A stretch of 64,000 nucleotides of DNA from the NCBI GenBank assembly GCA_902787955.1, contig CADAIJ010000004.1:1-64000 (forward strand), in the 5' to 3' direction. The stretch's first letter is position 1; every line of letters starts with the position of its first letter. The notes under the pieces are model-generated. The model was not told where the DNA came from. It was given only the letters and a program-made list of their open reading frames with translations, and did not search any database. Of this stretch, positions 1,179-37,413 are shown one piece after another. Position numbers and translations under genes: made by a program. Source of the stretch: an uncultured Erysipelotrichaceae bacterium. Its GTDB lineage: Bacteria > Bacillota_I > Bacilli_A > RFN20 > CAG-826.

Positions 1179-1290
1179 GTCTGGTGGTGATGGCGCGGTG
1201 GACACACCTGTTCCCATCCCGAACACAGAAGTTAAGCACCGTAGTGGCGAAGGTATCTGATTTATCAGGGAGAATAGCGAGCTGCCGGGC
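1179..1290 (+). rRNA. 5S ribosomal RNA
   Basis: The core CCCATCCCGAACACAGAAGTTAAGC at about 1214 is diagnostic of 5S rRNA. The terminal helix forms between GTCTGGTGGT at the start and GCTGCCGGGC at the end, with several G-U pairs. It lies about 120 bp after 23S in the usual 23S-5S order, and a T-run right after the 3' end probably terminates the operon. The ends are good to a few bases. Confidence 0.95.
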
Positions 1291-1316
1291 TTTTTTATTT
1301 TAAGCCCATTTAATTA

Positions 1317-1325
1317 TGTTATAAT
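1317..1325 (+). promoter_or_regulatory. extended -10 promoter for the gene at 1346
   Basis: TGTTATAAT matches an extended -10 element exactly. The predicted start is near 1332, at the GGAG Shine-Dalgarno sequence 11 nt before the ATG, so the leader would be very short. No clear -35 box. Confidence 0.55.
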
Positions 1326-1345
1326 TATTCTGGAGATATAGGGCA

Positions 1346-2542: not shown

Positions 2543-2609
2543 CCGTTTTAGTTTTGTATTTATATGAAATTGTGATATATTAGCATTGCTAATATTAAGA
2601 AAGGTAATT

Positions 2610-2969
2610 ATGGCAGTAACAAAGAAAAACAAATTTGGACAAGTATCAATTAGTATCGACGCTATCGCAAGTGTAGCGGGTGATGCCGCCTTAGAATGCT
2701 ATGGCGTTGTTGGTATTGCTAATCGTAGCAGTGTCCACGAAGTTATCGCAGAAATCTTAAAGAAAGAATCTTTTGCGAAAGGTATCGTTATTGATAAAGA
2801 GAAAAATGGATATTCCTTATCCTTATATTTAGTTATTGCTCCTAATGTTAAAATTACCGAAGTTTTATCTGAAGTTCAGAAGAAAGTTAAATATGATCTC
2901 GAACGTTCATTTGGTATTAAAGTTTATAAACTCCACGTGTTCGCTCAAGACATCAATAATAAGAAATAG
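2610..2969 (+). CDS. Asp23/Gls24 family envelope stress protein
   Basis: This 119-residue protein belongs to the Asp23/Gls24 family, typically small cytosolic proteins that associate with the membrane and respond to envelope stress. The family pattern is visible: the GQVSISIDAIASVAG start, the AALECYGVVGIA segment and a C-terminal part ending in a VYKLHVFAQDI strand. The ATG at 2610 is chosen because AAGAAAGG precedes it at good spacing; a TTG at 2586 is in frame but has no such site. The stop is 2 bp before fakA, the usual Firmicutes pairing (YloU-YloV), so the two are almost certainly co-transcribed. Confidence 0.9.
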   Translation: MAVTKKNKFGQVSISIDAIASVAGDAALECYGVVGIANRSSVHEVIAEILKKESFAKGIVIDKEKNGYSLSLYLVIAPNVKITEVLSEVQKKVKYDLERSFGIKVYKLHVFAQDINNKK

Positions 2970-2971
2970 TT

Positions 2972-4618: not shown

Positions 4619-4629
4619 TTATCTTAAGA

Positions 4630-6630
4630 ATGGAAAAGGTTAAGTTTTCCAAATCAGAGAAAATAAATAATGCCCTTTATAAAATGGGCATTTTTTCCTA
4701 TAAAGACGTGATTAACACTCTTCCAAGGAAATACATTGATTATAGTTTAACAAAAGAGACAAATTTAAACGATAAAGATAAGGTTGTTATTGAAGGAAAA
4801 ATAGTAGGAACTCCCTTAACTTCCCGTTTTAAAAACATTTCTGTCACTAAATTTACCTTTGTTTCTTTAGCTAAAAATATCTTTTATGTTGAAGCATGGA
4901 ATCGTCCTTATTTAGCTAAAACCCTTAGTGGAGAAGAGGTGTACACGCTTAACGCTTCATATGATTTAAAGAAGAATAAGTTAAATTTGATTAATATCAC
5001 TAAAGGAAAGATTGATAAAGATGAGACACTTAAACCCCAATATGCTTTACCAAACGATATCGAACAATATCAATTCCATAGATTAGTTTCAAAAGCTTTT
5101 AAAGAAGTAGATTCATCTAAATTTATAAATGATGTTCCAGCGTATTTTATAAAGAAGTATCGTTTGCTTAATAAGTATGACGCTTTATATAAACTTCATT
5201 TCCCTAAATCTTATGATGATTTATATCAAGGGATGAGAGTTTTTAAATATTATGAATCTTTATTCTTTACCTTAAAGAATCATTTAATCCGTTATGAGAA
5301 TAAATTATTAGTTAAAGAAACAAAGAATCATATTGATATTAAAGAACTTAAAGATTTCTTAGCCACTCTTCCTTATGAACTCACTAGTGATCAAAAGAAA
5401 GTAACGAATGAGATTATTAAAGATATGAACGATAAATCTTTAATGTATCGTTTACTTCAAGGTGATGTTGGAACTGGTAAAACTTTAGTAGCCTTAATTG
5501 CTTTATACGCAAACTATATTAGAGGGGATCAAGGCGCCTTAATGGCTCCAACTGATGCTTTAGCTAGACAACACTATAAAGTAGCAGTGGATCTTTTTAA
5601 AAACACAAATATTAAAATAGCTTTATTACTTGGCTCAACCTCAACAAAAGATAGAAGTGTTATTCGAGCTGCTTTAATGAATCATGAAATTGATTTAGTA
5701 ATAGGAACTCACGTCCTTTTCTCAAAAGATATCAATTATGATTCATTAGGTTTAGCGATTATTGATGAACAACATAAGTTTGGTGTTAACCAAAGACAGA
5801 CATTAGCAAGTAAAGGTGAGCACGCTGATTTACTTCTTATGAGTGCTACTCCAATTCCAAGAACTTTAGCGTTAACATTATATGGTGATTTAGATGTTTC
5901 AACAGTGGAGGAATATCCATTTAAAGATAGGCATATTGAAACGAAGATTTTAAAAGATGATTCTAAAGAACTTAAGAAGCTAATTTCTAACTCATTAGAA
6001 AACGATAAACGCATCTTTGTTGTCGCCCCTTTAATTGATGATGAAAACCAAAAAGAAGCCATTTCTGCGGAGTTTTTATACGCAAAATATGCTTTAAAGT
6101 ATCCAGGAAAAGTTTCATTATTACATGGAAGACTAGACTATGATGATAAGAATTTTGCTCTTCAAGATTTTATTAAAGGAATAACCCCAATTCTTGTTTC
6201 TACTACTGTTATAGAAGTTGGAATTGATGTTAAAAAAGCAGACCTTATGATTATTTATGATCCTACTCATTTTGGTTTAGCTTCACTTCATCAACTTAGA
6301 GGGAGAATCGGAAGAGACGGAAGTTTAGCTAACTGTGTTTTAGTGTATGATGGAAACGATGAAGATGAATTAGATAAACTTAATGTTTTAGTTAATTCTA
6401 ATAATGGCTTCCATATTGCTGAAGAGGATTTAAGAAGAAGAGGCCCAGGAGAATTAACTGGTGTTAAACAATCTGGTATTGCTAACTTCACCTTTGTTAA
6501 TCTTGTTAATGACTTTAAGATATTTGTCACCGCAAGAGATGATTCTAAATTCATTATTGAAAATAAGAACGAATACGGCTTTAAAAATATCCTTCTTAAG
6601 GCTAGTAAAGATATTAAGGGAAGAGATTAA
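4630..6630 (+). CDS. recG: ATP-dependent DNA helicase RecG
   Basis: RecG remodels stalled replication forks and branch-migrates Holliday junctions. The 666-residue protein has an N-terminal wedge/OB region, a Walker A motif GDVGTGKT near residue 278, the RecG-typical Walker B DEQH near 379 followed by KFGVNQR, a SATPIPRTLAL motif, and a C-terminal helicase half with QLRGRIGR. The length is slightly shorter than the common 680-690. It sits between fakA and plsX as in Bacillus. An intrinsic terminator overlaps its stop codon. No strong Shine-Dalgarno sequence precedes the ATG, so translation may depend on the upstream gene. Confidence 0.96.
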   Translation: MEKVKFSKSEKINNALYKMGIFSYKDVINTLPRKYIDYSLTKETNLNDKDKVVIEGKIVGTPLTSRFKNISVTKFTFVSLAKNIFYVEAWNRPYLAKTLSGEEVYTLNASYDLKKNKLNLINITKGKIDKDETLKPQYALPNDIEQYQFHRLVSKAFKEVDSSKFINDVPAYFIKKYRLLNKYDALYKLHFPKSYDDLYQGMRVFKYYESLFFTLKNHLIRYENKLLVKETKNHIDIKELKDFLATLPYELTSDQKKVTNEIIKDMNDKSLMYRLLQGDVGTGKTLVALIALYANYIRGDQGALMAPTDALARQHYKVAVDLFKNTNIKIALLLGSTSTKDRSVIRAALMNHEIDLVIGTHVLFSKDINYDSLGLAIIDEQHKFGVNQRQTLASKGEHADLLLMSATPIPRTLALTLYGDLDVSTVEEYPFKDRHIETKILKDDSKELKKLISNSLENDKRIFVVAPLIDDENQKEAISAEFLYAKYALKYPGKVSLLHGRLDYDDKNFALQDFIKGITPILVSTTVIEVGIDVKKADLMIIYDPTHFGLASLHQLRGRIGRDGSLANCVLVYDGNDEDELDKLNVLVNSNNGFHIAEEDLRRRGPGELTGVKQSGIANFTFVNLVNDFKIFVTARDDSKFIIENKNEYGFKNILLKASKDIKGRD

Positions 6631-6646
6631 ATCTCTTTTCTTTTTT
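6621..6646 (+). terminator. intrinsic terminator overlapping the recG stop
   Basis: AAGAGATT and AATCTCTT pair perfectly around one central A and are followed by TTCTTTTTT. The recG stop codon at 6628-6630 lies inside the hairpin. Confidence 0.75.
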
Positions 6647-6708
6647 CATCCTAATTATTTATCCAGCCAATTATATTGTTAATTATATTCGCTTATATAA
6701 TAAGAATT

Positions 6709-6717
6709 TGCTATTAT
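6709..6717 (+). promoter_or_regulatory. extended -10 promoter for plsX
   Basis: TGCTATTAT fits an extended -10 element with predicted start near 6724, giving a leader of about 19 nt that contains the AGAGGA Shine-Dalgarno sequence. A second TATAAT lies at 6696-6701. I see no FapR-type operator here. Confidence 0.45.
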
Positions 6718-6742
6718 ATATTCTAATTAGAGGAATTTTTCT

Positions 6743-7726
6743 ATGGTTAAATTAGTTATTGATATGTCAGGCGGAGATAATGGTGTGTCCGCTACAATTG
6801 GAGGAGTTAAATTATTCCTTCAAGATTATTCTGATGTCGAATTTGTTTTAGTGGGCAAAAAAGAAGAACTAAAAGAATTCGAAAATAATGAAAGATGCAC
6901 AATTATTGATGCTCAAGAAATTGCCCCAATGGAATGCACAGCTCTTGAAGCAATGAGAAATAAAGAAACATCGGTTTATAAAGCGGTTAATGCTGTTAAA
7001 GAACTTAACGCTGATGGTGTTGTTTCCGCCGGATCAACTGGTGCTTTCCTTTCTTTAACTACCTTAATCAATAAAAGAATTGAAGGAGTATCTCGTCCTG
7101 CTTTAATTCTTCCTTTCCCAACCAAACAAGATAATAAATATGTTGTCTTCCTTGATGTTGGTGCCTCTAATGAAAATTCACCTGAAGAATTATATCAATT
7201 CGCTAAAATGGGCGAAGCATATTATCGTGTCGTCTTTAATAAAGAAAACCCAACTCTATATTTAATGTCTAATGGTACTGAAGAAGGTAAAGGTTCTCCA
7301 GTTTCTAAAGAAGCTTTTAAATTATTAAAAGATGATAAGAATTTCAAAGGCTATATTGAAGCAAGAGCAGTTTATGAAGGATACGCTGATGTAGTAGCGA
7401 TGGATGGCTTTACCGGTAACGTCTTCCTTAAAGGTGCTGAAGGTATGGCTAAGATGATGTCTGGAATGATTAAAGACGCTTTTAAATCTTCATTTGTCTC
7501 TAAAATTGGATATTTATTCGCTCGTAAAGGTTTCAAAGGTTTATCCAATAAAATGGACTATAAGAAAGTTGGTGGCGCTTTACTTTTAGGGGTTAACACT
7601 ATTCCAGTCAAAGCCCATGGTAATTCCGATCCAAATTCATTTTATTGCTCAATTAGAGTTTGCTATAACTTAGCTAAAGGTGATGTCGTTAATAAAATTA
7701 AACAATCATTAAACGGAGCTAAATAA
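6743..7726 (+). CDS. plsX: phosphate acyltransferase PlsX
   Basis: PlsX converts acyl-ACP and phosphate to acyl-phosphate, the acyl donor for PlsY in phosphatidic acid synthesis. The 327-residue sequence shows the family N-terminus VIDMSGGDNG (commonly DAMGGDHAP), the SAGSTGAFLS motif, the FLDVGAS segment, DGFTGNVFLKG and the late LLGVNTIPVKAHGNS. The usual His after GGD is replaced by Asn here. Length and order before rnc are typical, but fabD, fabG and acpP, which usually sit between plsX and rnc in Firmicutes, are absent. It overlaps rnc by one base. Confidence 0.95.
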   Translation: MVKLVIDMSGGDNGVSATIGGVKLFLQDYSDVEFVLVGKKEELKEFENNERCTIIDAQEIAPMECTALEAMRNKETSVYKAVNAVKELNADGVVSAGSTGAFLSLTTLINKRIEGVSRPALILPFPTKQDNKYVVFLDVGASNENSPEELYQFAKMGEAYYRVVFNKENPTLYLMSNGTEEGKGSPVSKEAFKLLKDDKNFKGYIEARAVYEGYADVVAMDGFTGNVFLKGAEGMAKMMSGMIKDAFKSSFVSKIGYLFARKGFKGLSNKMDYKKVGGALLLGVNTIPVKAHGNSDPNSFYCSIRVCYNLAKGDVVNKIKQSLNGAK

Positions 7727-8406
7727 TGAAAGATATTCAAGAACTATTATCCGAATATAAGATTAAAGTCAAAAACCGTGAACTTTTTGAATTAGCTTTC
7801 ACTCATAAATCATTTAATGGTGACGCTAATACGAAGCATCATGACTATGAAAGACTTGAGTTTTTAGGCGATTCAGTTTTAGGCTGCGTTGTCGCCGAAC
7901 TCGCTTTTAAAACCCATCAAGATATGGCTCAAGGCCCATTAACTAAACTAAAATCCGCTATTGTTTCAACTGTTCCATTAGCTGAAACTGCTCGCCAAAT
8001 GCATTTAGATGAATATGTAAGAGTAGGCAATTCCTTTGCTAATGATGTTTCAAAATCAGATTCCTTACTTGAGGATGTTTTTGAAGCATTTGTTGGAGCG
8101 CTTTATCTTGATCAAGGTTTTACTGTAACTAGAAAACTATTAATCAAAGTTCTTCATAGTCATATCCAAGCTTTCCAAATGAAAGACTTAACTGATTATA
8201 AATCTCGTTTGCAAGAAGAGATGCAAGCCGAACACCGTGAATCAGTAGTCTATGAAGTTATTAAAGAAGAAGGCCCATCTCACCAAAGAATATTTACTGT
8301 TCAAGTTACCTTTGATGGGGTTATTTTAGGAGTTGGAAAAGGCTCCACAAAAAAGAAAGCCGAACAAGAAGCTGCTAAAGCTGCTTTAGATAAAAGAGTG
8401 GGGTAG
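7726..8406 (+). CDS. rnc: ribonuclease III
   Basis: RNase III cleaves double-stranded RNA during rRNA maturation and mRNA turnover. The 226-residue protein carries the signature ERLEFLGDSVLG at residues 42-53 with its catalytic acidic residues, a second acidic site at LEDVFEAFVGALYLD, and a C-terminal double-stranded RNA-binding domain from about residue 155 ending in the typical KKKAEQEAAKAAL helix. The start overlaps the plsX stop (AATGA-type coupling), and ftsY follows 2 bp later. This is the rnc-ftsY order of Firmicutes with smc missing between them. Confidence 0.96.
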   Translation: MKDIQELLSEYKIKVKNRELFELAFTHKSFNGDANTKHHDYERLEFLGDSVLGCVVAELAFKTHQDMAQGPLTKLKSAIVSTVPLAETARQMHLDEYVRVGNSFANDVSKSDSLLEDVFEAFVGALYLDQGFTVTRKLLIKVLHSHIQAFQMKDLTDYKSRLQEEMQAEHRESVVYEVIKEEGPSHQRIFTVQVTFDGVILGVGKGSTKKKAEQEAAKAALDKRVG

Positions 8407-8408
8407 TT

Positions 8409-9407
8409 ATGGGTTTATTTAAGTTTTTAAAAGATAAATTCTCCAAAAAAGAAGAGAATAAAGTTGAACAAGAATCCACTAAAACTTACGTCCAAGGAAT
8501 GGAAAAATCCCGTAAGAATTTTGCTTCTAAACTCGATAATCTTTCGAAACGTTATAAAGAAGTTAACGCTACTTATTTTGAAGAATTAGAAGAAATCTTA
8601 ATTGAAGCAGATGTTGGTGTTTCTTTAACCCTTCGAATAATTGACGAAGCTTTAACTGAATCAAAAGAAAAGAACATTAAAGAACCTAAAGAAATCAATG
8701 ATTTAGTCGTTGATAAGATGTTTTTAGGGTATGCAACTAATGGAGGAAATATCGTTAACGAAATTAGATTTGTTAGTGAAGGCCCAACCGTTTTACTTGT
8801 TGCTGGTGTTAATGGTGTTGGTAAAACTACTACCATTGCTAAACTTGCTTATCGTTATATTCATCAAGGTAAGAAAGTAATGCTTTGCGCTGCTGATACT
8901 TTTAGAGCAGGCGCTATTGAACAACTTACCATTTGGGCGGAACGTTTAGGTTGTCCAATTGTAACAGGTAAACCAGAAAGTGATCCGGCTAGCGTTGCCT
9001 TTGATGGAGCTAGAAAAGCCAAAGAAGAAAATATTGATTTATTAATTGTTGATACCGCTGGTCGACTTCAAAACAAAACCAATTTAATGAATGAACTTGG
9101 TAAGATTAGCCGTGTTATTTCTAAAGAAATAAGTGGAGCACCTCATGAAGCATTTTTAGTTATTGATGCTACTACTGGCCAAAACGGGGTTGTTCAAGCT
9201 AAAGAATTTAAAGACTGTGTTCCATTAACTGGTATTGTAATTACGAAAATGGATGGAACTTCTAAAGGCGGCATCATCCTTGCCATTAGAGATGAACTTG
9301 GTTTACCAGTTCGCTTTATTGGTTTAGGGGAAAAGATGACTGACTTAGAAGAATTTGACTTAGATAAATATTTATATGGCTTATGTCTTGGAGACGAATA
9401 TGAATAA
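8409..9407 (+). CDS. ftsY: signal recognition particle receptor FtsY
   Basis: FtsY is the membrane-associated SRP receptor GTPase that accepts ribosome-SRP complexes for delivery to SecYEG. The 332-residue protein has a short charged N-terminal region, the four-helix N domain, a P-loop [10 protein letters not shown] near residue 133, DTAGR near 215, the insertion-box DTFRAGA and the TKMDG specificity motif. The lack of a long acidic A domain is normal for Gram-positive FtsY. Its last bases overlap ylxM by 8 nt; ffh follows, so both SRP GTPases are in one operon. Confidence 0.97.
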
Positions 9408-9711
9408 TAATTTAGATCATGTTGTCTATATGAATAAGCTTATCTCTATTTATGGGAAGTTATTAACCGAAATTCAAAGAGATATTCTTCAAGATTATTA
9501 TGAATTTAATCTCTCTTTCCAAGAGATAGCGGAAGCAAGAAATATATCTCGTTCCGCGGTTAGTGACTGCATTAAAAAAGCGGCGACAAAATTAGACAAT
9601 TTAGAAAAAGCGCTGGGGTTACTAGCCTTTATTGAAGAAGAGAAGAAGAAAAATAACCCTGAAATAGATAAAGTAATTGAACGATTGGAGGAAAGATTAA
9701 ATGGCATTTGA
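9400..9711 (+). CDS. ylxM: YlxM-type SRP operon helix-turn-helix protein
   Basis: This 103-residue protein matches the YlxM/p13 family, small sigma-70 region 4-like proteins encoded beside ffh that have been linked to SRP function. The helix-turn-helix is visible in the segment [20 protein letters not shown]. The ATG at 9400 is preferred because TTGGAG lies just before it; an earlier in-frame ATG at 9376 lies deep inside ftsY. It overlaps ftsY at its start and ffh at its end by 11 nt, and the GGAGG for ffh is inside it, so translation of the three genes is coupled. Confidence 0.9.
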
Positions 9712-11056
9712 ATCACTTAGTGACCGTTTCCAAAGAGCTCTTAAAAAGATTCGTGGTCAATCTAGACTTACCGAAGCTAATATGGACGATATGCTTAAAG
9801 AAGTCCGTATTGCTCTTTTAGAAGCTGATGTTAACTTCAAAGTTGTTAAAGAATTTATTGAACACATTAAAACTAAAGCCATTGGTGAACAAGTTTATTT
9901 AAAACTTAATCCTTCCCAAATGGTTGTTAAAATCGTTCATGATGAATTAGTTGAATTACTCGGTAGTGGAGATTCTGAACTTAAATATCAAAAGAATAAA
10001 CCTACTATTATTATGCTTGTTGGTTTACAAGGTACAGGTAAAACTACATCTGCGGGTAAATTAGCCTATTTAATGAAGAAGAAACTTGGTAAAAAAGTTC
10101 TTCTTGCCGCGTGTGACGTTTATCGTCCTGCCGCTATTGACCAATTAAAACAAGTAGCAGCCCAAGTTGATGTTCCTGTTTATTCACTTGGAACTAACGC
10201 TAATCCTGTTGATATTGCTAAACAAGCTCGAGATAAAGCTTTTAATGAACATCTTGATGTTCTTATTATCGATACTGCTGGTCGTTTACAAATTGATGAG
10301 CCTTTAATGGAAGAACTTAATAATATTTCTAAAGAAGTTAAACCAGATGAAGTTCTTTTACTTGTTGATGCGATGAGTGGTCAAGACGCCATTAATGTCG
10401 CTAATACCTTTAATTCTAAACTAGATTTAACTGGTATTATCATGTCTAAACTTGATGGCGACGCTCGTGGCGGTTCAGCCCTTTCAATTAAGCATTTGAC
10501 GGGAGTTCCTATTAAATTTGCTGGTGTTGGTGAAAAATTATCAGACTTAGATATCTTCCATCCAGACCGTATGGCAGATCGTATTTTAGGAATGGGCGAT
10601 GTTGTAACTTTAGTTGAAAAAGTCCAAGAAGAAATCGATGAAAAAGATGCGAGAAAAACCGCCCAAAAGATGATGGATGGTGATTTCACTTTAGAAGATA
10701 TGCTTGAACAAATGAAAAAGATTCAAAAGATGGGCTCATTATCTTCTTTAATGAAATTAATTCCTGGAATGCCAAAGATTAGTGAAGAACAAAAACTTCA
10801 AGCCGAAAAAGAAATGAAAAATGTTGAAGCGGTTGTTAATTCAATGACTCCTGAAGAAAGAAGACATCCAGAAATATTAAAGAATTCTCGTAAAGTTAGA
10901 ATCGCTAATGGATGCGGTAAAACTAACGCTGACATTAATCGCGTCTTAAAGAAATATGAACAAATGAAAGCTGCAATGAAGCAGATGAAACAATATCAAA
11001 AGAGTGGACGAATGCCTCCAGGTGGCTTAGGTGGTCTTGGCGGAATGCCGTTCTAA
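9701..11056 (+). CDS. ffh: signal recognition particle protein Ffh
   Basis: Ffh binds SRP RNA and hydrophobic signal sequences and targets them to FtsY. The 451 residues show the N domain, a P-loop GLQGTGKTTSAGKLA near residue 108, DTAGRLQ near 190, TKLDG-like SKLDGDARGG, and a methionine-rich M domain from about 300 that ends in a glycine-rich PGGLGGLGGMPF tail. It starts inside ylxM with a strong GGAGG. The downstream side is unusual: rather than continuing into rpsP, the stop is one base away from the stop of trmD on the other strand. Confidence 0.97.
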   Translation: MAFESLSDRFQRALKKIRGQSRLTEANMDDMLKEVRIALLEADVNFKVVKEFIEHIKTKAIGEQVYLKLNPSQMVVKIVHDELVELLGSGDSELKYQKNKPTIIMLVGLQGTGKTTSAGKLAYLMKKKLGKKVLLAACDVYRPAAIDQLKQVAAQVDVPVYSLGTNANPVDIAKQARDKAFNEHLDVLIIDTAGRLQIDEPLMEELNNISKEVKPDEVLLLVDAMSGQDAINVANTFNSKLDLTGIIMSKLDGDARGGSALSIKHLTGVPIKFAGVGEKLSDLDIFHPDRMADRILGMGDVVTLVEKVQEEIDEKDARKTAQKMMDGDFTLEDMLEQMKKIQKMGSLSSLMKLIPGMPKISEEQKLQAEKEMKNVEAVVNSMTPEERRHPEILKNSRKVRIANGCGKTNADINRVLKKYEQMKAAMKQMKQYQKSGRMPPGGLGGLGGMPF

Positions 11057-11057
11057 T

Positions 11058-11831
11058 TTATTTAGTAAATTTTTTACCTTTATTTAAAGCATCGGTTAAC
11101 CACTTTGGTTCATCGATGCTTTTATTTAATTCATCAACAAGCTTTAAATCTTGCTTTGTGAAGTTATGTTTTTCATAAAGATCAGGACGATACTTTTTAG
11201 TTAATCGAAGGGACTCTTTGCGGCGAAATTTATTAATCGCGGTGTGATTTCCGGTATATAAAATATTAGGAACTTTCTTCCCTTCAAAATCATCTGGTTC
11301 AGTATATTGTGGATATTCTAATAAATTATCTTCAAATGATTCCTCATTTAGTGATTCATTAGAAATCGCTCCATCAAGTAAACGGATAATTGAATCACTA
11401 ATAACCATTGCGCCTAGTTCTCCACCAGTAAGGATATAATCACCGATAGAAACTAGTTCATCAACATATTCGTTTATTCTTTCATCAACGCCTTCATAAT
11501 GGCCACATATAATTGTTAATTCAGGGCAGTTCTTATATGTTTTCGCATCACTTTGCTTATAAGTTTTCCCTCGCGGAGACATTAAGATTTTATGGGTATC
11601 CATTAAGTTATTTTGTCTTAAACAGTCGACGATTGGTTGACACTTTAAAACTAAACCAGCTCCTCCCCCAATTGGAGCGGTATCAACTCGTCCATATTTA
11701 TCTAAGGTGTAATCTCTTATATTTATGATCTTTACTTCCACAGCTTCTTTAGCGATAGCGCGTTTAATAATTGAGTTATTTAAAAACCCGTCAAACATGT
11801 CAGGAAATAAAGTGAGAATATTTATTATCAT
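11058..11831 (-). CDS. trmD: tRNA (guanine-37-N1)-methyltransferase TrmD
   Basis: TrmD methylates G37 next to the anticodon of tRNAs that read CNN codons, which prevents frameshifting. The 257-residue SPOUT enzyme shows the N-terminus INILTLFPDMFDGFL, the SAM-binding knot with CGHYEGVDERI and SIGDYILTGGE, and the catalytic-region YTEPDDFEGKKVP. It overlaps rimM by 4 nt and is last in an rpsP-khpA-rimM-trmD operon that runs opposite to the flanking genes. Its stop almost touches the ffh stop; the only terminator-like sequence there is a weak AATTTA/TAAATT hairpin. Confidence 0.97.
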   Translation of the reverse strand: MIINILTLFPDMFDGFLNNSIIKRAIAKEAVEVKIINIRDYTLDKYGRVDTAPIGGGAGLVLKCQPIVDCLRQNNLMDTHKILMSPRGKTYKQSDAKTYKNCPELTIICGHYEGVDERINEYVDELVSIGDYILTGGELGAMVISDSIIRLLDGAISNESLNEESFEDNLLEYPQYTEPDDFEGKKVPNILYTGNHTAINKFRRKESLRLTKKYRPDLYEKHNFTKQDLKLVDELNKSIDEPKWLTDALNKGKKFTK

Positions 11832-12334
11832 AAAAGACCTTCGATAAATTTAACAATAATCTTTTTACTTTCAATATCAACAGTTTTGATAAAAGCATCA
11901 ACAAAAGGAATTAAGACATCCTTACCATTATCTCTTTTAACTCTTAATGTACGATAAGAAGCATATTCTTCAACATTTTTAACTTCTCCAATTAATATAT
12001 CGTTATCAAAGATAACAGTGCATTCAATTAAATCAGTGTAAAAATATTCATCTTTTCTTAATACTTTATTATCTTTTTCAACAAGTAAGTTGTAGTGAAC
12101 GTATTTTTCAGCTTCTTCTATCGAAGAGATTTCCTTAAAGATTAAATTATCACATTCCCCGTTTTTACTATGGATTTTAATTGTGACTTCTTTAAGATTT
12201 CCATCATCCTTCGATAGAAAAAGGTGATTCCCACTTTTAAAGCGAGAATCACGAAAATCTGTAGTTGGATAAACTTTGACTTCGCCTCTAAGGCCAATAG
12301 TTCTAATGATTGTACCGACGCGAAGATATTCCAT
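11828..12334 (-). CDS. rimM: 16S rRNA processing protein RimM
   Basis: RimM assists maturation of the 30S head and binds ribosomal protein S19. The N-terminal RimM domain begins MEYLRVGTIIRTIGLRGEV, and the C-terminal PRC-barrel part contains GEVKNVEEYASYRTLRV and the conserved LIPFVDAFIKTVD. I chose the ATG at 12334 because the protein then begins exactly at the conserved first strand and lies 4 nt after the khpA stop; a TTG at 12355 would overlap khpA. No clear Shine-Dalgarno sequence is present, so coupling to khpA is likely. Length of 168 residues is usual. Confidence 0.93.
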   Translation of the reverse strand: MEYLRVGTIIRTIGLRGEVKVYPTTDFRDSRFKSGNHLFLSKDDGNLKEVTIKIHSKNGECDNLIFKEISSIEEAEKYVHYNLLVEKDNKVLRKDEYFYTDLIECTVIFDNDILIGEVKNVEEYASYRTLRVKRDNGKDVLIPFVDAFIKTVDIESKKIIVKFIEGLL

Positions 12335-12338
12335 AAGT

Positions 12339-12596
12339 TTATTTGTCTTCGTCAAAAGATTCGAATTTTAAATGAATTCTTTTGTTTTCTGTTTTGCCTG
12401 CAACAGCGACAACGTCTCTTAAAGCATTAGCAACTGAGCCTTTTTTACCAATTAAGCGAGCAGTGTCTTCGTTTTCAGCAACAATTAATAAATTAACATC
12501 TTTGTCAGAATCACTTGGAAGTTCTCTAACCATTAATGCATCTTTATTAATTAAGAATGGATCACAGATTGTATGAATAATCTTTTCGTAGTCCAT
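12339..12596 (-). CDS. khpA: KH-domain RNA-binding protein KhpA
   Basis: KhpA is a small RNA-binding protein, partner of KhpB in many Gram-positives, that binds a range of transcripts and affects cell elongation and division. The 85 residues are essentially one KH domain with the RNA-contacting GxxG-type loop in DTARLIGKKGSVANALRD. It sits between rpsP and rimM as in most Firmicutes. It is 2 bp after the rpsP stop, so co-transcription from the rpsP promoter is expected. Confidence 0.92.
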   Translation of the reverse strand: MDYEKIIHTICDPFLINKDALMVRELPSDSDKDVNLLIVAENEDTARLIGKKGSVANALRDVVAVAGKTENKRIHLKFESFDEDK

Positions 12597-12598
12597 TA

Positions 12599-12871
12599 TT
12601 ATTTTCCTTTTTTGGAAGCGTTATATTTTTCCATAATACCTTTTTCAGTGAAAAGGGTCTTGATGGAATCAGATGGGGTAGCACCGGCTTTTAACCATTT
12701 TAAAGCGAGTTCTTCATTGAGGTCAGCGGATTCTGGACCCTTAGCTGGATCATAGAAACCGATTTGTTCAATGTAACGACCATCTCTAGCGAATCTGCTA
12801 TCGGCAACAACGACTCTATAAATAGAGGTTTTATGACGACCGATTCTGGTTAATCTAATTTTAACTGACAT
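12599..12871 (-). CDS. rpsP: 30S ribosomal protein S16
   Basis: S16 is a small-subunit protein needed for 30S assembly. The 90-residue sequence has the family start VKIRLTRIGRHKTSIYRVVVADSRFARDGRYIE and the GFYDPAKG motif, with a normal length and a basic tail. It is first in the minus-strand operon rpsP-khpA-rimM-trmD. An AAGGAG Shine-Dalgarno sequence precedes it, and a near-consensus promoter lies directly upstream. That promoter fits a transcription unit made independent after inversion. Confidence 0.97.
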   Translation of the reverse strand: MSVKIRLTRIGRHKTSIYRVVVADSRFARDGRYIEQIGFYDPAKGPESADLNEELALKWLKAGATPSDSIKTLFTEKGIMEKYNASKKGK

Positions 12872-12902
12872 AAATTTAATCTCCTTATTAAAACCGCTAG
12901 TA

Positions 12903-12931
12903 ATGATAAGTTATATTTATAAAGGTGTCAA
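12903..12931 (-). promoter_or_regulatory. sigma-A promoter of the rpsP operon
   Basis: On the minus strand TTGACA (12931-12926) is followed after exactly 17 bp by TATCAT (12908-12903). The predicted start is near 12896, leaving a leader of about 25 nt with AAGGAG. Confidence 0.8.
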
Positions 12932-12960
12932 GTATTTTTACTTAACAGATAAAATAAGTC

Positions 12961-12985
12961 AAAAAGAAAGAGGAGATTACTCCTC
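12961..12985 (-). terminator. intrinsic terminator of the glycosyltransferase gene
   Basis: On the minus strand GAGGAG-TAAT-CTCCTC is followed by TTTCTTTTT. The hairpin includes the stop codon of the gene it ends. Confidence 0.75.
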
Positions 12986-14314
12986 ACTCTTTTCTTCGTT
13001 TGTTTCATTTACTTCTTCAGCTGTTGCTTCAGTTTCTAGCTGTTTCTTTTCTACAATTTTTGGATAAAGAATCTTAAATATATCGTAAGCAATAATACAA
13101 ATAACAATTAAATATAAGATAGCGCCAAATCTAAATGATAAAGCCTTAGTTGGATCGTTTTGTTCTTGTGGGACAACGTTGATAAATGGTACATTCCAAA
13201 GATAAACCATATAACCAATCATCGAAGTTATTATCGCCATTATTCCGAGATAGAACTTCTTTGGGTTTAAGACAACATAAATCATGATTGCAGCGTCTGC
13301 GATGTAATAATATCTATCATGCATATGTGGTAAAACAAATGGAGTTAGCATCACAAAGAAAACAAAGATTTTAACAAGCATATTATCGTCAAATTCTTCT
13401 TTGCTGCGATAGATGAAATAAATGAAAATTCCTATAGATACTAAGGCGAATGGGACTGAGAAGGCGGAAATATAGTCTTCAGATTTGAAGTTAGTAAAGA
13501 TGAGAGAATATAAGGTTGAACAGTTCAAAGCGAGCTGTTTATAGCTATTCACACTTTGGTTGAAATAGACCGTTAAAATTTCTCCAAGTCGAACAAAGAA
13601 ATTATCCGCGGCAATACAAGCTGGAAGAGCAAAAATAATATAAACAATTGGAATCCAAACTAAGTATTTTAAATTCACTTTTCGTCTTAAGAACATAACG
13701 ACAAAGAACGGAATAATAAAGATTGTTTGGAGTTTAAAGGCAAAGGCAACAGAAAGCATAATCGCTGAGGTGCGGTGGTGTTTTGTCATAAAGAAGTAGA
13801 AACTCATCACCACAAATGTTGCGTAAATCGCATCGCATTGTCCCCATAATGCAGAATTTAAGAAAATAGTTATACCAAATAACACTAAACCATAGGTAAG
13901 GATTGATTTAACTTTATCTTTATTAGTGATGTGATAAACGATTAAGCCACAGAACACGGATAAAACATAATCAAAGAAGACGGAATAAATCTTGATTGCG
14001 TGAACAAGTTGATCACTTCCTGGTTCTATTCTAAATAAAGAAATAAACCATAAATAATAGTTATATGCAGGAGTGTAGTCTCCGATATTTTGTCCTAACG
14101 CTTTAAAGCCGTTATCATAATAAAGGGTGTACCATTTATTTAAAAAGGAATTAAAGTCACCGGTTCTTTTATCAAATAAAGCAATTCTTAAAACCAAACC
14201 TACGATTGAAATAACCGCTAAAAGGATAATCCAATCATATTTCTTTAAGAAGGCGAAAAATACATCTCCAACCTTTTTCCAGAAGTTACTAATTTTTTCG
14301 AAAAATGCGTTCAT
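12977..14314 (-). CDS. multipass membrane glycosyltransferase, GT-C type (Gpi18-related)
   Basis: The 445-residue protein has about ten hydrophobic segments and resembles bacterial proteins related to the Gpi18/PIG-V mannosyltransferases, GT-C enzymes that use lipid-linked sugars at the outer membrane face. Visible features are an early acidic loop (FDKRTGDFNSFLNKW), DYTPAYNYYLW near residue 80, the conserved NSALWGQCDAIYA, and a MHDRYYYIADA motif in the C-terminal third. The tail is Glu-rich and cytosolic. Donor and acceptor are unknown. It has its own terminator and lies between the inverted rpsP block and the M18 peptidase, divergent from the latter. Confidence 0.75.
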   Translation of the reverse strand: MNAFFEKISNFWKKVGDVFFAFLKKYDWIILLAVISIVGLVLRIALFDKRTGDFNSFLNKWYTLYYDNGFKALGQNIGDYTPAYNYYLWFISLFRIEPGSDQLVHAIKIYSVFFDYVLSVFCGLIVYHITNKDKVKSILTYGLVLFGITIFLNSALWGQCDAIYATFVVMSFYFFMTKHHRTSAIMLSVAFAFKLQTIFIIPFFVVMFLRRKVNLKYLVWIPIVYIIFALPACIAADNFFVRLGEILTVYFNQSVNSYKQLALNCSTLYSLIFTNFKSEDYISAFSVPFALVSIGIFIYFIYRSKEEFDDNMLVKIFVFFVMLTPFVLPHMHDRYYYIADAAIMIYVVLNPKKFYLGIMAIITSMIGYMVYLWNVPFINVVPQEQNDPTKALSFRFGAILYLIVICIIAYDIFKILYPKIVEKKQLETEATAEEVNETNEEKSEE

Positions 14315-14458
14315 TTTGTATACCTGAAATAATAGTATAATCTAACTTGTTAAAACAAAAAAGCAAATGAATATCATTAACTTAATGAACATATCGTTTG
14401 TTATTTTCATTTAAATAATATTTAATATTCATTGACTAATAAAAAGGAGGATTTCTCT

Positions 14459-15826
14459 ATGTATAGAAAAAACGCATGGAATAAATATGAAAACAAAGCT
14501 GATGTCTTCGCGTTTGCTGAAGGATATAAACAATTCATTTCCTATGGAAAAACTGAACGTTTAGTCGTTAAAGAAGCTCTTGTTTTACTTGAAGATAAGG
14601 GCTTTAAAAATGGCGCTACATTAAAAAGCGTTAAGCCAGGCGATAAGGTTTATTTTACAAACCGTAACAAAAATATCGCTGCCTTTATTATCGGCAAAGA
14701 ACCACTTGTTAATGGTTTAAGAATTTTAGGTGCTCACATCGATTCACCTCGCTTAGACTTTAAAGAAAACCCATTCTATGAAGATCGTGATTTCGTTTTA
14801 GCAGACACTCACTATTATGGTGGTGTTAAAAAATATCAATGGGTTACAATCCCACTCGCCCTTCATGGTGTGGTTGTTAAAAAAGATGGCACAACAGTCG
14901 ACATCAATATCGGTGAAGATGAATTCGAACCAATCGTTGGTATCACTGATTTACTTATCCATTTAAGCGCTGATCAACTCGCTAAACCTGGTTCTAAGGT
15001 TATTGAAGGTGAAGGCTTAGATGTTTCTATTGGTTCTATCCCACTTAAAGATGAAAAAGAAGATCCAGTTAAAACTCATGTCTTAGCTATCTTAAAAAAT
15101 GAATACGGAATTGATGAAGAAGACTTTGTCTCTGCTGAAATTGAAGTTGTTCCTGCCGGCAAAGCTCGTGACTATGGTTTAGATCGTTCAATGGTCGCCG
15201 GTTATGGTCATGATGATAGATGCTGCGCTTATTCTTCTTTAAAAGCTTTATTAGATACAAATGAAACTGATAAAACTGCTTGCTGCATATTAGTTGATAA
15301 AGAAGAAATTGGTTCTGTTGGTGCAACCGGTGCTCAATCTGTTTTCTTTGAAAACATCGTTGCTAAACTTGCGGAACTTATGGGTGAAGCTAATCCACTT
15401 TTACTTACTAGAAGAGCTTTTGAAAATTCCAAGATGCTTTCTAGCGATGTTTCCGCTGGGTTTGACCCACTTTATCCACAAGTAAATGATCCAAAAAATG
15501 CGGCTTTCTTTGGTAAAGGTTTAGTCTTTAATAAGTACACTGGTTCACGTGGTAAATCCGGTTGTAACGATGCTAATCCAGAATATTATGCTTGGGTTAG
15601 AAGAGTTATGGATGAGGCTGATGTATATTGGCAAAACGCTGAACTTGGTAAAGTTGACCAAGGTGGTGGTGGTACAATCGCCTACATCTTAGGTAACTAC
15701 AATATGAATGTTATTGACGCAGGTATTCCTGTTCATAATATGCACGCTCCTATGGAGATTATTTCCAAAGTTGACCTCTATGAAGCGTATTTAGGTTATA
15801 AAGCATTCTTAGTCGCTAAAGATTAG
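14459..15826 (+). CDS. M18 family zinc aminopeptidase
   Basis: M18 peptidases are large cytosolic dodecameric exopeptidases that release N-terminal, often acidic, residues using two metal ions. The metal ligands are recognisable in AHIDSPRLDFK, GHDDRCCA, VDKEEIGSVGA and the C-terminal PVHNMHAPME. The sequence fits the Firmicutes and clostridial group of about 460 residues. The ATG at 14459 is chosen because AAAGGAGG precedes it; a TTG at 14432 lies upstream of that site. It is divergent from the glycosyltransferase, with about 140 bp of AT-rich promoter region between them, and is followed by the rplS promoter. Confidence 0.92.
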   Translation: MYRKNAWNKYENKADVFAFAEGYKQFISYGKTERLVVKEALVLLEDKGFKNGATLKSVKPGDKVYFTNRNKNIAAFIIGKEPLVNGLRILGAHIDSPRLDFKENPFYEDRDFVLADTHYYGGVKKYQWVTIPLALHGVVVKKDGTTVDINIGEDEFEPIVGITDLLIHLSADQLAKPGSKVIEGEGLDVSIGSIPLKDEKEDPVKTHVLAILKNEYGIDEEDFVSAEIEVVPAGKARDYGLDRSMVAGYGHDDRCCAYSSLKALLDTNETDKTACCILVDKEEIGSVGATGAQSVFFENIVAKLAELMGEANPLLLTRRAFENSKMLSSDVSAGFDPLYPQVNDPKNAAFFGKGLVFNKYTGSRGKSGCNDANPEYYAWVRRVMDEADVYWQNAELGKVDQGGGGTIAYILGNYNMNVIDAGIPVHNMHAPMEIISKVDLYEAYLGYKAFLVAKD

Positions 15827-15828
15827 TC

Positions 15829-15857
15829 TTGCTTTTCAAATATTAATTTGATATTCT
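15829..15857 (+). promoter_or_regulatory. promoter of rplS
   Basis: TTGCTT at 15829-15834 and, after 17 bp, TATTCT at 15852-15857 preceded by TGA, an extended -10 form. The predicted start is near 15864. Confidence 0.65.
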
Positions 15858-15863
15858 TTTCGT

Positions 15864-15925
15864 TGCGTGCTCTAAGCACCCTGCGGACGTTCCGCTTTCA
15901 AGACATGATATGAACGCCTTAAGAA
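15864..15925 (+). ncRNA. structured leader of rplS (candidate L19 autoregulatory leader)
   Basis: Two small hairpins follow one another: GTGC-TCTAA-GCAC (15867-15879) and GCGGA-CGT-TCCGC (15883-15895). Both stems are GC-rich against an AT-rich background and lie in the 5' leader of rplS. Ribosomal protein L19 leaders are known in Firmicutes; I assign this by position and shape and cannot score a covariance model. Confidence 0.55.
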
Positions 15926-15952
15926 AAAATTTGTAAAGAAGGAGGAAAAGAG

Positions 15953-16300
15953 ATGAACTCAAATATTGTTAATGAGATTACTGCTCGTCAAATTAAAACT
16001 GATGTCCCAGAATTCTCCAGCGGTGATACTGTCAAAGTTTATGTTAGAATCATCGAAAACAAAAAAGAACGTATTCAAATCTTCCAAGGCGTCGTAATGC
16101 AACGCCGCGGCTCCGGTGTCAGTGAAACATTTACCGTTAGAAAGATTTCTTCCGGTGTTGGTGTTGAAAGAACTTTCCCAGTTAACTCTCCAGCTATCGC
16201 TAAGATCGAAAGAGTTAAGAAAGGTAAAGTACGTCGCAGTAGAATTAATTACTTACGTGAACGTTCTGGCAAAGCCGCTCGTATTAAAGAAGTATTGTAA
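15953..16300 (+). CDS. rplS: 50S ribosomal protein L19
   Basis: L19 lies at the 30S-50S interface. The 115-residue protein shows the typical [15 protein letters not shown] start, [23 protein letters not shown] in the middle, and the basic end [28 protein letters not shown] precedes the ATG. The gene has its own promoter, a structured leader and a terminator, so it is monocistronic here. That contrasts with the usual ffh-rpsP-rimM-trmD-rplS unit and follows from inversion of the rpsP block. Confidence 0.98.
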
Positions 16301-16319
16301 TTACGTAACTTTAGAAATT

Positions 16320-16346
16320 AGTCGCCATTTGGCGACTTTTTCTTTT
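16320..16346 (+). terminator. intrinsic terminator after rplS
   Basis: AGTCGCC-ATTT-GGCGACT is a perfect 7-bp hairpin followed by TTTTCTTTT. Confidence 0.9.
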
Positions 16347-16351
16347 GTTTG

Positions 16352-16379
16352 TTGATAATTAGTTACATTAATTTATACT
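16352..16379 (+). promoter_or_regulatory. promoter of lepB with ATG at about +3
   Basis: TTGATA at 16352-16357 and, after 16 bp, TATACT at 16374-16379. Only 9 nt separate the -10 box from the lepB ATG at 16389, so the predicted mRNA has essentially no leader and no Shine-Dalgarno sequence. Confidence 0.7.
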
Positions 16380-16388
16380 TATTTAAGT

Positions 16389-17168
16389 ATGGCTGATGAA
16401 GAAAAGAAAGTAGACCAAGAATCTTCAAATGTAGATTCTTCAAAGAAAAAGAAATGGAATGTGCTTATTAATGTTGCTTCCATTACTTTAATCGTGGTCA
16501 CTTTAACTTTAATCGGAATGTCTGCCTTTCAGATTTATCATCGTAACCGTTATGAACATTTCTGGGTCAACGGACAATCAATGTATCCAACTTTAAATAA
16601 AGACGCCAAATATAAAGATGGTAGCTTAATTGGCTTAAGAAATAGAAGTAGCGATGTAAGTGGAAACTACGATGTTGATTTTGGTTACATGGACACTCAT
16701 ACCGAGTCATTAGATAATATCAAACGTTTTAATATTGTTGTTTGCCAATATAACGCTTCTGGAGTGGATGTAATTAAAAGAGTAGCAGTCCTTCCAGGCG
16801 AAACTTTTTATATCACTGTTTCTACAATTGGAAGTGAAGAAAACGGTAATTTATATATTAAAGATAAAGATACCGGTGAATTTAATTTAGTTGAACAACC
16901 TATTGATAGTGAAATCGTTCATGGTGGAACTTACACGACTAATTTTGCCACTCCAACCACTTTAGCGGATAACGAATACTTTGTTATGGGGGATAATCGT
17001 TACGGATCTAATTCAAGCGACTGTCGCACCCCATCTAATAAAGTTTATCGTTCTTATATCTCTGGCTTAGTTATGGGCTTAGAAGCTAAATGCCGCATTA
17101 TTAGAAATGATAAAGGTGTTTTTGAGCCTACTGATATTACTCATTATTTCCCTTGGAGAAAGTTATGA
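16389..17168 (+). CDS. lepB: type I signal peptidase
   Basis: Signal peptidase I removes signal peptides from secreted proteins at the outer membrane face. The 259-residue protein has a charged cytosolic N-terminus, one membrane segment at about residues 26-49, the catalytic Ser64 in NGQSMYPT, the catalytic Lys130 in VIKRVAVLPGE, and the late box NEYFVMGDNRYGSNSSDCR. The ATG at 16389 has no Shine-Dalgarno sequence but lies 9 nt after a good promoter. It overlaps rbgA by 4 nt; lepB-rbgA-rnhB after rplS is a common Firmicutes order. Confidence 0.95.
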   Translation: MADEEKKVDQESSNVDSSKKKKWNVLINVASITLIVVTLTLIGMSAFQIYHRNRYEHFWVNGQSMYPTLNKDAKYKDGSLIGLRNRSSDVSGNYDVDFGYMDTHTESLDNIKRFNIVVCQYNASGVDVIKRVAVLPGETFYITVSTIGSEENGNLYIKDKDTGEFNLVEQPIDSEIVHGGTYTTNFATPTTLADNEYFVMGDNRYGSNSSDCRTPSNKVYRSYISGLVMGLEAKCRIIRNDKGVFEPTDITHYFPWRKL

Positions 17169-18660: not shown

Positions 18661-18713
18661 CCCAAATTTTGATCATTTTTATCGCCTTCACCCCCTACTT
18701 ATTGGTAGGAGGT
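18661..18713 (+). promoter_or_regulatory. dprA leader pattern shared with the gene at 36685
   Basis: CCCAAA at 18661-18666, 23 bp, ACCCCC at 18690-18695, then TAGGAGGT at 18706-18713. The region upstream of 36685 has the same two hexamers with the same 23-bp spacing and the same Shine-Dalgarno octamer. No standard -35/-10 pair is evident. Confidence 0.4.
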
Positions 18714-18719
18714 CTTTTT

Positions 18720-19559
18720 ATGGAAGCAAGAGACATTTTAATTTATTTGAACATGCGTTTTGACGCGAATTGGGATGAAATCTATAAGCATATATGCGCT
18801 AAAGATTTAGATTTTACTGAAGATGAAGTTGAGTCCGCTTTAAAAAGTATTAAGTCTAAAGTGGTAACTGCCTTAGATGATGATTATCCTGAGGTACTTA
18901 AGACATGTTTTAAGATGCCATTTGTTCTTTATTATTATGGAGACTTATCTCTTTTAAATGATCGAGAGAAGATTACTGCAATAGTAGGATCAAGAAACGC
19001 ATCTAATTATGGAAGGACAAAAGGATATGAAATCGCTAAAGAAATCGCTAAAGAATATATCATTATTTCTGGTATGGCTCATGGAATTGACTCAGTGGCT
19101 CATGAAGCGTCGATTGCAGTAAACGGTAAAACGATAGCAGTTTTAGGTAGTGGAATTGATTATTGTTACCCACAAGACAATAAAAGATTATATGAATATA
19201 TTAAAGAAAATGGATTATTAATATCTGAGCACGCGAACAAACACGCTCCATTACCAACTAATTTTCCATGGCGAAATCGAATTATAGCTCACTGCGCGAG
19301 ATTTTTATTTGTTCCAGAAGCTAAATTAAGATCAGGAAGTCAAGTTACAGTTAGTTTTGCTCTTAATACCGTTGATAACATTTTTGTTCTTCCTCATCAT
19401 GCTGGAGAGGATTCATTATGTAACCGTTTAGCTATTTCAGGAGCAGCTTTAATTGAATCAATTGAGGATTTCCATCACGAGGTAGCATTAGGCAAAGGGA
19501 AGTATGAAGTAAGTGAAGAAGTGCGAAAGAATTTTTCAAGCGAGGTTAAAGAATATTAA
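18720..19559 (+). CDS. dprA: DNA-processing protein DprA
   Basis: DprA binds incoming single-stranded DNA during natural transformation and loads RecA. The 279-residue protein contains the Rossmann-like DprA core: IVGSRNASNYG, the signature SGMAHGIDSVAHEAS, VLGSGIDYCYP, and the later FPWRNRIIAHCARFLFVPEA. The C-terminal winged helix common in longer DprA proteins is absent or reduced. The ATG at 18720 is chosen because TAGGAGG lies at ideal distance; a TTG at 18669 is upstream of it. The order rnhB-dprA-topA is typical of Firmicutes. No other competence gene is in the window. Confidence 0.94.
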   Translation: MEARDILIYLNMRFDANWDEIYKHICAKDLDFTEDEVESALKSIKSKVVTALDDDYPEVLKTCFKMPFVLYYYGDLSLLNDREKITAIVGSRNASNYGRTKGYEIAKEIAKEYIIISGMAHGIDSVAHEASIAVNGKTIAVLGSGIDYCYPQDNKRLYEYIKENGLLISEHANKHAPLPTNFPWRNRIIAHCARFLFVPEAKLRSGSQVTVSFALNTVDNIFVLPHHAGEDSLCNRLAISGAALIESIEDFHHEVALGKGKYEVSEEVRKNFSSEVKEY

Positions 19560-36595: not shown

Positions 36596-36630
36596 TATAG
36601 GAACTCGGCTCTTTGAGACAAATTGTCCCA
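36596..36630 (+). repeat. copy 1 of a 35-bp dispersed repeat
   Basis: It begins TATAGGAACTCGG and ends TTTGAGACAAATTGTCCCA. It matches 62198-62232 at 32 of 35 positions, including an identical 23-mer at 36608-36630. Its 3' half is one arm-pair of a near-perfect palindrome. It lies directly after the tRNA-Arg terminator. Confidence 0.75.
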
Positions 36631-36677
36631 AACTTTTTCACTTTGCCATATTTTTACCCCCATTAATAGTAGGAGGT
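36627..36677 (+). promoter_or_regulatory. leader pattern of the 36685 gene shared with dprA
   Basis: CCCAAA at 36627-36632, 23 bp, ACCCCC at 36656-36661, then TAGGAGGT at 36670-36677. The two hexamers and the exact 23-bp spacing recur before dprA (18661-18713). Confidence 0.4.
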
Positions 36678-36684
36678 ATTTTTT

Positions 36685-37413
36685 ATGGAATTATCAAATT
36701 ATTACAATCAAAAGAAAGTGAAATCACTCGGTTTTTCTGATCGTCTAATCAAAGAATTACTACCTGAACCCGTTTTAGAAAAGAACCCACATCACGAGGA
36801 TGGCCACATGATGAAACTTTGGCCTAAATCAATTGTCAAAGCTGCAATGAAGGACAATAGGTTTTTAAATTATCAAAGAGAAAGACAACATCGCTCTATC
36901 TCAATGAAAAATGCTGCGGGATTAAAAAAGTTTGAAACACTTAAACAAGTGAATGAAGCATTAAAAGATTTAGTCGTACAGGTTTATCCTTATGAAACAT
37001 TATTAGCAAATACTAAGAAGTTTTATGTTAGAAATGAAAAAGAAAGTATTAGGTTTGCTAATTTATCACCTAAGAAGCTTAATAAGTTCCTTCTTAATTA
37101 TGTAAGGCATAAGTGCACTAACTATGAAAAGATTTACCTTAACTTATATGGAAAATATGGTTGTATCGATGCTTATATTCATTTGAGAGAAGAAGCAATG
37201 AAAGCTATTGCGAGATTTTATCCATTTCTAGAAGAGGCAGTCTGTGAAGATATTTTAAAGATGCGTAGTAAAAACCATGAATCTATGGAGATTGCCCATA
37301 AGAAATATTTAGAAAAAAGAATGAAAAGAATACACCTTAGAGAGCAATTTAAAGCTAGAAAGAAAAAACGTCTTGAAGAAAGTGCTTGCTTAGAAGCTAA
37401 AAATATTAAATAA
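36685..37413 (+). CDS. conserved protein of unknown function
   Basis: I do not recognise a named family for this 242-residue basic soluble protein. Two stretches look like conserved motifs I associate with uncharacterised bacterial proteins: an N-terminal LGFSDRLIKELLPEP followed by NPHH and MKLWP (residues about 14-47), and a central LLNYVRHKCTNYE (about 136-148) followed by DAYIHLREEAMKAIARFYPFL. The last 40 residues are Lys/Arg-rich, which would suit nucleic acid binding. TAGGAGG gives a clear start. The gene sits alone between tRNA-Arg and tRNA-Ala, and its leader resembles that of dprA. Confidence 0.8.
   Translation: MELSNYYNQKKVKSLGFSDRLIKELLPEPVLEKNPHHEDGHMMKLWPKSIVKAAMKDNRFLNYQRERQHRSISMKNAAGLKKFETLKQVNEALKDLVVQVYPYETLLANTKKFYVRNEKESIRFANLSPKKLNKFLLNYVRHKCTNYEKIYLNLYGKYGCIDAYIHLREEAMKAIARFYPFLEEAVCEDILKMRSKNHESMEIAHKKYLEKRMKRIHLREQFKARKKKRLEESACLEAKNIK

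Follow-up and report, generated by a model that had tools for sequence, protein, structure and literature searches.

A shared promoter-like leader before competence and recombination genes of an uncultured Erysipelotrichaceae bacterium

In streptococci, late competence genes (comEA, dprA, ssbB and others) are preceded by one short -10-type element that is not of the sigma-A kind, the CIN-box of the ComX (SigX) regulon, with the consensus TACGAATA and several variants (PMC11288034, in excerpt). In Lactobacillus sakei, a non-sporulating member of the Firmicutes, the alternative sigma factor sigma-H activates the com genes and dprA (PMC3364868, in excerpt). In Micrococcus luteus, according to the excerpted text, the tad genes are the only type IV pilus genes in a genome that also has comEA/comEC and dprA, and transformation requires them (PMC4322843); within the Erysipelotrichales the Bulleidia extructa genome has a tad operon (PMC12786226, in excerpt). 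These are the systems that most resemble the locus described here.

The leader pair and its copies in the genome

The window, i.e., the whole stretch of 64,000 nt that was analysed, holds two copies of a CCCAAA-N23-ACCCCC leader (18661-18725 and 36627-36690), where a preliminary description had placed them, both followed by TAGGAGGT and an ATGGAA start. With the gap relaxed to N15..30, the pair of blocks matched twice in the window against 0.03 expected, and two or more matches were obtained in 0 of 100 shuffles; across the whole genome (G000; 1.5 Mb, 14 contigs) these two are the only matches, with the relaxed gap as with the exact N23 form. The description had further stated that ACCCCC is absent outside rRNA, and this stands because the third of the three copies in the window (position 968) belongs to the 23S rRNA. 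It had seen no obvious standard promoter, and the sigma-70-like matches near both leaders are indeed weak: two at the dprA leader (both strands) against 1.2 in shuffles, and one at the second leader, at 36643, against 0.4. The identical block spacing holds for these two sites but is not unique, the other copies in G000 having 23-25 bases.

All features of the pair lie on the forward strand. At dprA, the conserved block CCCAAATT (18661..18668), the CCCAAA of which is common to nine G000 sites, stands 5′ of a putative -35-like element, TTGATC (18669..18674), read by eye from the aligned leaders at the distal peak of conservation between recA and dprA leaders of the same genome. The -10-like CCCCTA (18692..18697), likewise read by eye and at the proximal peak, is 17 bp from TTGATC and overlaps ACCCCC. 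A terminator-like hairpin with 8 of 9 pairs, ACCCCCTAC-TTATTG-GTAGGAGGT, followed by CTTTTT (18690..18713), carries the dprA Shine-Dalgarno sequence TAGGAGGT (18706..18713) in its right arm, and the gene itself (18720..19559, 279 aa) matches PF02481 (7.6e-60) and TIGR00732 (195.5 bits, cut-off 191.15). At the second site, the CCCAAA block is at the end of an imperfect palindrome, TTTGAGACAAATTGTCCCAAA (36612..36632), similar to sequences at loci L035 and L041; the putative -35-like TTTTCA (36635..36640, by eye against the other sites) and -10-like CCCCAT (36658..36663) are again 17 bp apart, and the gene that follows (36685..37413, 242 aa), hereafter the 36685 gene, is under the same leader as dprA.

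The 36685 protein has no Pfam or NCBIfam family, its predicted structure is poor (mean pLDDT 52), and no plasmid or viral relatives were found in a search for them. Among 116 genomes of the family it matched only its own; a near-identical copy (L146) is present in the near relative G014, which is evidently outside those 116, under the same leader, with an altered spacer and both blocks kept. Since the leader is the same as that of dprA and is conserved in G014, the earlier proposal that the 36685 gene belongs to the dprA regulon is supported by sequence.

We searched G000 for further copies with up to three mismatches, for exact CCCAAAYTTTT (11 places) and for exact CCCAAATTTT (13 places), and read the downstream genes. 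Nine strong sites were retained; the remaining exact matches, including a degenerate copy at L100, had no second block and were discarded. Four of them belong to competence and recombination genes: dprA; recA (L033), which lies after cinA; the consecutive genes comEA and comEC (L098); and rpsF-ssb (L107), where a short ORF comes first. The leader was therefore present before recA, comEA/comEC and ssb, where the preliminary description had advised looking for it. The other five sites precede the 36685 gene, an ABC-transporter gene (L102), L035, L037 and L041. No comG was found in G000, the sole clear PF00437 match being a TadA-like ATPase, and the Tad operon has a partial leader copy without CCCAAA. 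A matrix built from the nine sites and applied to 550 kb of G000 scored the sites at 32.6-46.6 bits, the next independent match at 15.7 and the best reversed control at 20.0; in the leave-one-out version, eight of the nine sites remained above the best reversed control, and dprA fell below it (15.9).

Several of these loci show features of their own. Between the leader and rpsF, a sigma-A-like TTGTTA-N17-TATAAT was seen by eye, and the rpsF-ssb locus (C5:124115 onwards) apparently combines a distal competence-type leader with a proximal sigma-A-like promoter. The same arrangement, a distal competence-type and a proximal sigma-A promoter, is found at rpsF-ssb of Bacillus subtilis. At L102 (C3:85939, minus strand), the ABC transporter gene, encoding an ATPase and a membrane part, is immediately 3′ of the leader. 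L037 (C1:50629-53663, minus strand) and L035 (C10:16085-19119, minus strand) contain tiny tandem ORFs (about 22 aa), every one with a Shine-Dalgarno sequence to itself; their very hydrophobic products have LLLKD-like ends and resemble type I toxin-like or signalling peptides. At L041 (C1:176047-179081) and at L145 of G014 (C17), the leader is followed by a gene for a 65-aa peptide, charged in its leader part and hydrophobic in its core, that looks bacteriocin-like by eye and has no Pfam or NCBIfam match. L136 (C6:29833-30444) holds another dprA-like sequence (58.7 bits), in which there is an internal TAG.

Leaders within and between genomes of the genus

In a survey of 24 genomes of the genus, recA, dprA and PF00437 matches were each present in 23, and comEC (PF03772) in 10 (5 of the 9 good ones). 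The RecA segment of CAMOYS010000022.1, a MAG labelled ‘uncultured Bacillales bacterium’, is identical to that of G000, and further matches came from rumen and gut Bacilli, including Candidatus Alloenteromonas. The leaders of recA, dprA, comEA and the Tad operon were similar inside one genome and dissimilar across genomes. We quantified this by local alignment of the 52 nt upstream of the Shine-Dalgarno sequence, comparing own-genome with other-genome pairs in 20,000 permutations, with 21 recA, 22 dprA and 10 comEA leaders. The recA leaders of G001, G002 and G008 (absent or partial), the contig-cut dprA leader of G014 and the second dprA-like copies of four genomes were left out, the start of the G022 dprA leader was chosen by eye, and close relatives were collapsed by eye (G014 into G000, G001 and G018 into G003, G023 into G004), G005 and G011 being counted separately although alike.

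The recA-dprA score was 40.0 within and 20.1 between genomes (17 genomes), a difference reached in 0 of 20,000 permutations. For the pairs with comEA the values were 27.0 against 17.2 with recA (7 genomes; 37 of 20,000) and 26.2 against 18.7 with dprA (8 genomes; 36 of 20,000). The Tad leaders, tested on 9 genomes at first and then on a larger set, gave 40.9 against 22.3 with dprA (14 genomes) and 41.2 against 23.5 with recA (13 genomes), both in 0 of 20,000 permutations. Nine control pairs involving topA, rnhB, cinA or the gene after recA gave no signal (1,188 to 16,390 of 20,000). The own partner was ranked top for recA-dprA in 12 of 17 genomes (the exceptions being G004, G010, G013, G016 and G022), for dprA-tad in 7 of 14 and for recA-tad in 7 of 13, and the comEA leader of G012 was ranked last.

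When recA and dprA leaders of the same genome were compared, conservation formed two peaks, at -27..-37 and -4..-15 from the Shine-Dalgarno sequence, with a trough between them, as would be expected for a -35/-10 promoter-like architecture; CCCAAA adjoins the -35-like and ACCCCC overlaps the -10-like element. We read the boxes by eye (the two-peak profile is their sole computed support) as TTGATC/TTGAAC in G000, TTGGAC in G012, TTGAAC in G006 and GTGCAA in G003 for the -35-like element and, 16-18 bp away, as CCCCTA in G000, CCCCAA in G012, CGAATA in G004, CGAATT/CGGATT in G003, CGCATT in G006, CGTAAT in G007 and CAGTAT in G009 for the -10-like one. ACCCCC is also the -35 sequence of SigI, and a SigI promoter was considered and rejected, as its -10 would coincide with the Shine-Dalgarno sequence. 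The -10 region of dprA reads TGCGAATA in G004 and TACGAATT in G003, both comparable with the CIN-box, and TGCGAATA is a variant recorded for Streptococcus dysgalactiae (PMC11288034, in excerpt). The consensus ComX box was not found in G000, which is of the CCCCTA type, the CIN-box variant occurring only in relatives such as G004.

Many dprA leaders also fold into a terminator-like hairpin over the ribosome site. A scan called a terminator-like structure at 18694-18709, and in several genomes the Shine-Dalgarno sequence forms one arm of the dprA hairpin and a T run follows. The last 50 nt of the leader folded with z ≤ -2 relative to dinucleotide shuffles for 11 of 19 dprA, 3 of 18 recA, 2 of 8 comEA and 0 of 9 tad leaders.

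The Tad operon and candidate regulators

The PF00437 ATPase fragment of G000 has TIGR03819 as its best NCBIfam match (E 4.8e-18, below the cut-off) and is followed by genes of 242 and 223 aa at the places of tadB and tadC; these and the other tad names are given by position and size, the fragments having no telling family match. Because TIGR03819 and the gene order make the operon Tad-like, the PF00437 genes were rejected as comG. G000 thus has a Tad/Flp-pilus set consisting of tad genes, comEA (ComEA above the TIGR00426 cut-off), comEC and dprA, with no second type IV pilus ATPase. A PF00437 search of G010 and G015 gave no convincing TadA-like match.

The first gene of the Tad operon is a small helix-turn-helix gene of the MG284/MPN403 type in 18 of the 18 genomes with a readable start; the contigs of G021, G002, G017 and G022 end too early, and contig C3 of G016, which repeats G011, was not counted. 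On that contig (L301), the first Tad-operon protein and the leader are identical to those of G011 (L213, C34), and since a further tad operon of G016 is on C6, contig C3 of this assembly may be contamination. The proteins, about 102-130 aa long and found by one profile, match NF045770, the MG284/MPN403 C-terminal domain, in 10 of 10 scanned cases (E up to 1, best 3.4e-20; 42.3 bits in G000, cut-off 37.3), and 9 of 10 match PHROG 248, ‘transcriptional activator’. Alignment with a seven-sequence set of ECF sigma factors by hhalign failed (probability 0.2), no telling match was obtained among solved structures, and a literature search on MG284/MPN403 gave nothing relevant.

No ComX/SigH was found in G000 by a whole-genome search with TIGR02937, a model that may miss ComX, and scanning roughly one third of the genome added none; the search returned RpoD, one ECF factor (P0003), a YlxM-like protein and three weak matches. 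P0003 was rejected as the regulator: only 10 of the 24 genomes of the genus have relatives of it, which share 22-31% identity and have different neighbour genes, and none was found in several genomes with the same leader architecture. At L148 (C4, about 132380-134950), an ECF sigma gene stands beside a gene for a membrane-anchored, serpin-like protein and after one for a SWIM-type zinc finger protein, as named by eye. The MG284/MPN403-type proteins, which head the Tad operon and show no alignment with the ECF set, are a candidate regulator of the leader.

Interpretation and comparison with known systems

We propose, with a probability of roughly three in four, that the leader is the promoter of a competence (natural transformation) regulon, read by a dedicated factor. 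Such a promoter would consist of the -35-like element (TTGATC/TTGAAC in G000), a 16-18 bp spacer and the non-sigma-A-like -10 (CCCCTA), and would serve dprA, recA, comEA-comEC, rpsF-ssb, the Tad operon in its partial form and some lineage-specific genes including the 36685 gene. The specificity factor might be a sigma factor, divergent but ComX/SigH-like, or an activator resembling one, e.g., the MG284/MPN403-type protein, and its recognition sequence would have drifted between species, the promoters changing together. At dprA, the promoter would overlap the terminator-like hairpin, by which the ribosome site is covered. Transcripts started at the putative promoter would not include the left arm, so that the ribosome site would stay accessible, and read-through from rnhB would be ended or silenced by the hairpin, dprA being reserved for the regulated promoter. 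The gene set and the within-genome concordance support, at the sequence level, the preliminary suggestion of a competence-type regulator signature; beyond it, the leader differs from genome to genome and changes as a set, and the Tad operon, headed by a helix-turn-helix-type gene, takes the expected place of comG. These cells would presumably take up DNA. More tentatively, the MG284/MPN403-type protein, and not a ComX-type sigma factor, could be the autoregulated master of competence and Tad the uptake pilus, the specificity having shifted by species and all targets having followed.

Other explanations were weighed against a competence promoter. A control sequence of the DNA-damage (SOS) type seems unlikely to us, even if recA, ssb, dprA and small hydrophobic peptides such as those 3′ of the leader at L035 and L037 would be plausible members of a damage regulon. 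Indeed, the SOS regulons of many bacteria include recA and ssb, but comEA-comEC and a pilus operon are atypical as damage genes, and the two blocks have promoter-like spacing, not that of a single operator. Somewhat less probable still is a mainly structural leader, in which ACCCCC would pair with AGGAGG and so terminate transcription of the upstream gene and/or switch translation, the shared blocks being a by-product. The folding of the majority of dprA leaders, the terminator-like call at 18694-18709 and the CTCCT/AGGAG arms at recA in G005 and G011 are consistent with this idea; however, 15 of 18 recA leaders (z above -2) and all nine tad leaders tested have no such hairpin, the tad element of G012 and G004 is far from the Shine-Dalgarno sequence in use, and the distal block is shared about as much as the proximal one.

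A chance similarity or a dispersed repeat (a duplicated cassette) is very improbable. The sites at 36627, L035 and L041 do share about 30 further upstream bases, including ATATAGGAA and CTCTTTGAGACAAA, but the six other sites keep both blocks without this extension, the concordance recurs with different letters in 17 genomes, and none of the shuffled windows contained two matches.

If the competence promoter is confirmed, an uncultured gut and rumen lineage would join the bacteria with a competence regulon, a shared promoter would tie a Tad pilus to com genes in Bacilli, the MG284/MPN403 family would gain a functional context, and the genus would offer a natural series of genomes for the direct study of specificity drift, with regulator and promoters changing jointly. 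No prior report of such a regulon was found in a literature search covering few subscription journals.

Among the features of ComX/SigH regulons, a shared promoter-like sequence before comEA-comEC, dprA, recA and ssb is present, whereas comG operon membership is not, a Tad-like operon with a partial leader being there instead. Relative to streptococcal ComX, the element varies by species, recA has its own site, and the Tad operon takes part, comG and ComX not having been found in G000. L. sakei uses comG and, in the excerpted text, induces recA and ssb little (PMC3364868), whereas here the leader is on recA and rpsF-ssb and no SigH was found. B. extructa, as excerpted, also has comG, and its tad locus was interpreted as an adhesion system (PMC12786226). 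The regulator candidate shares its C-terminal domain and PHROG 248 matches with the MG284/MPN403 family and the ArpU/late phage regulators, but is first in a pilus operon under a competence-type leader. Finally, M. luteus is an Actinobacterium, whereas here, in Bacilli, the tad operon has a leader in common with com and recombination genes.
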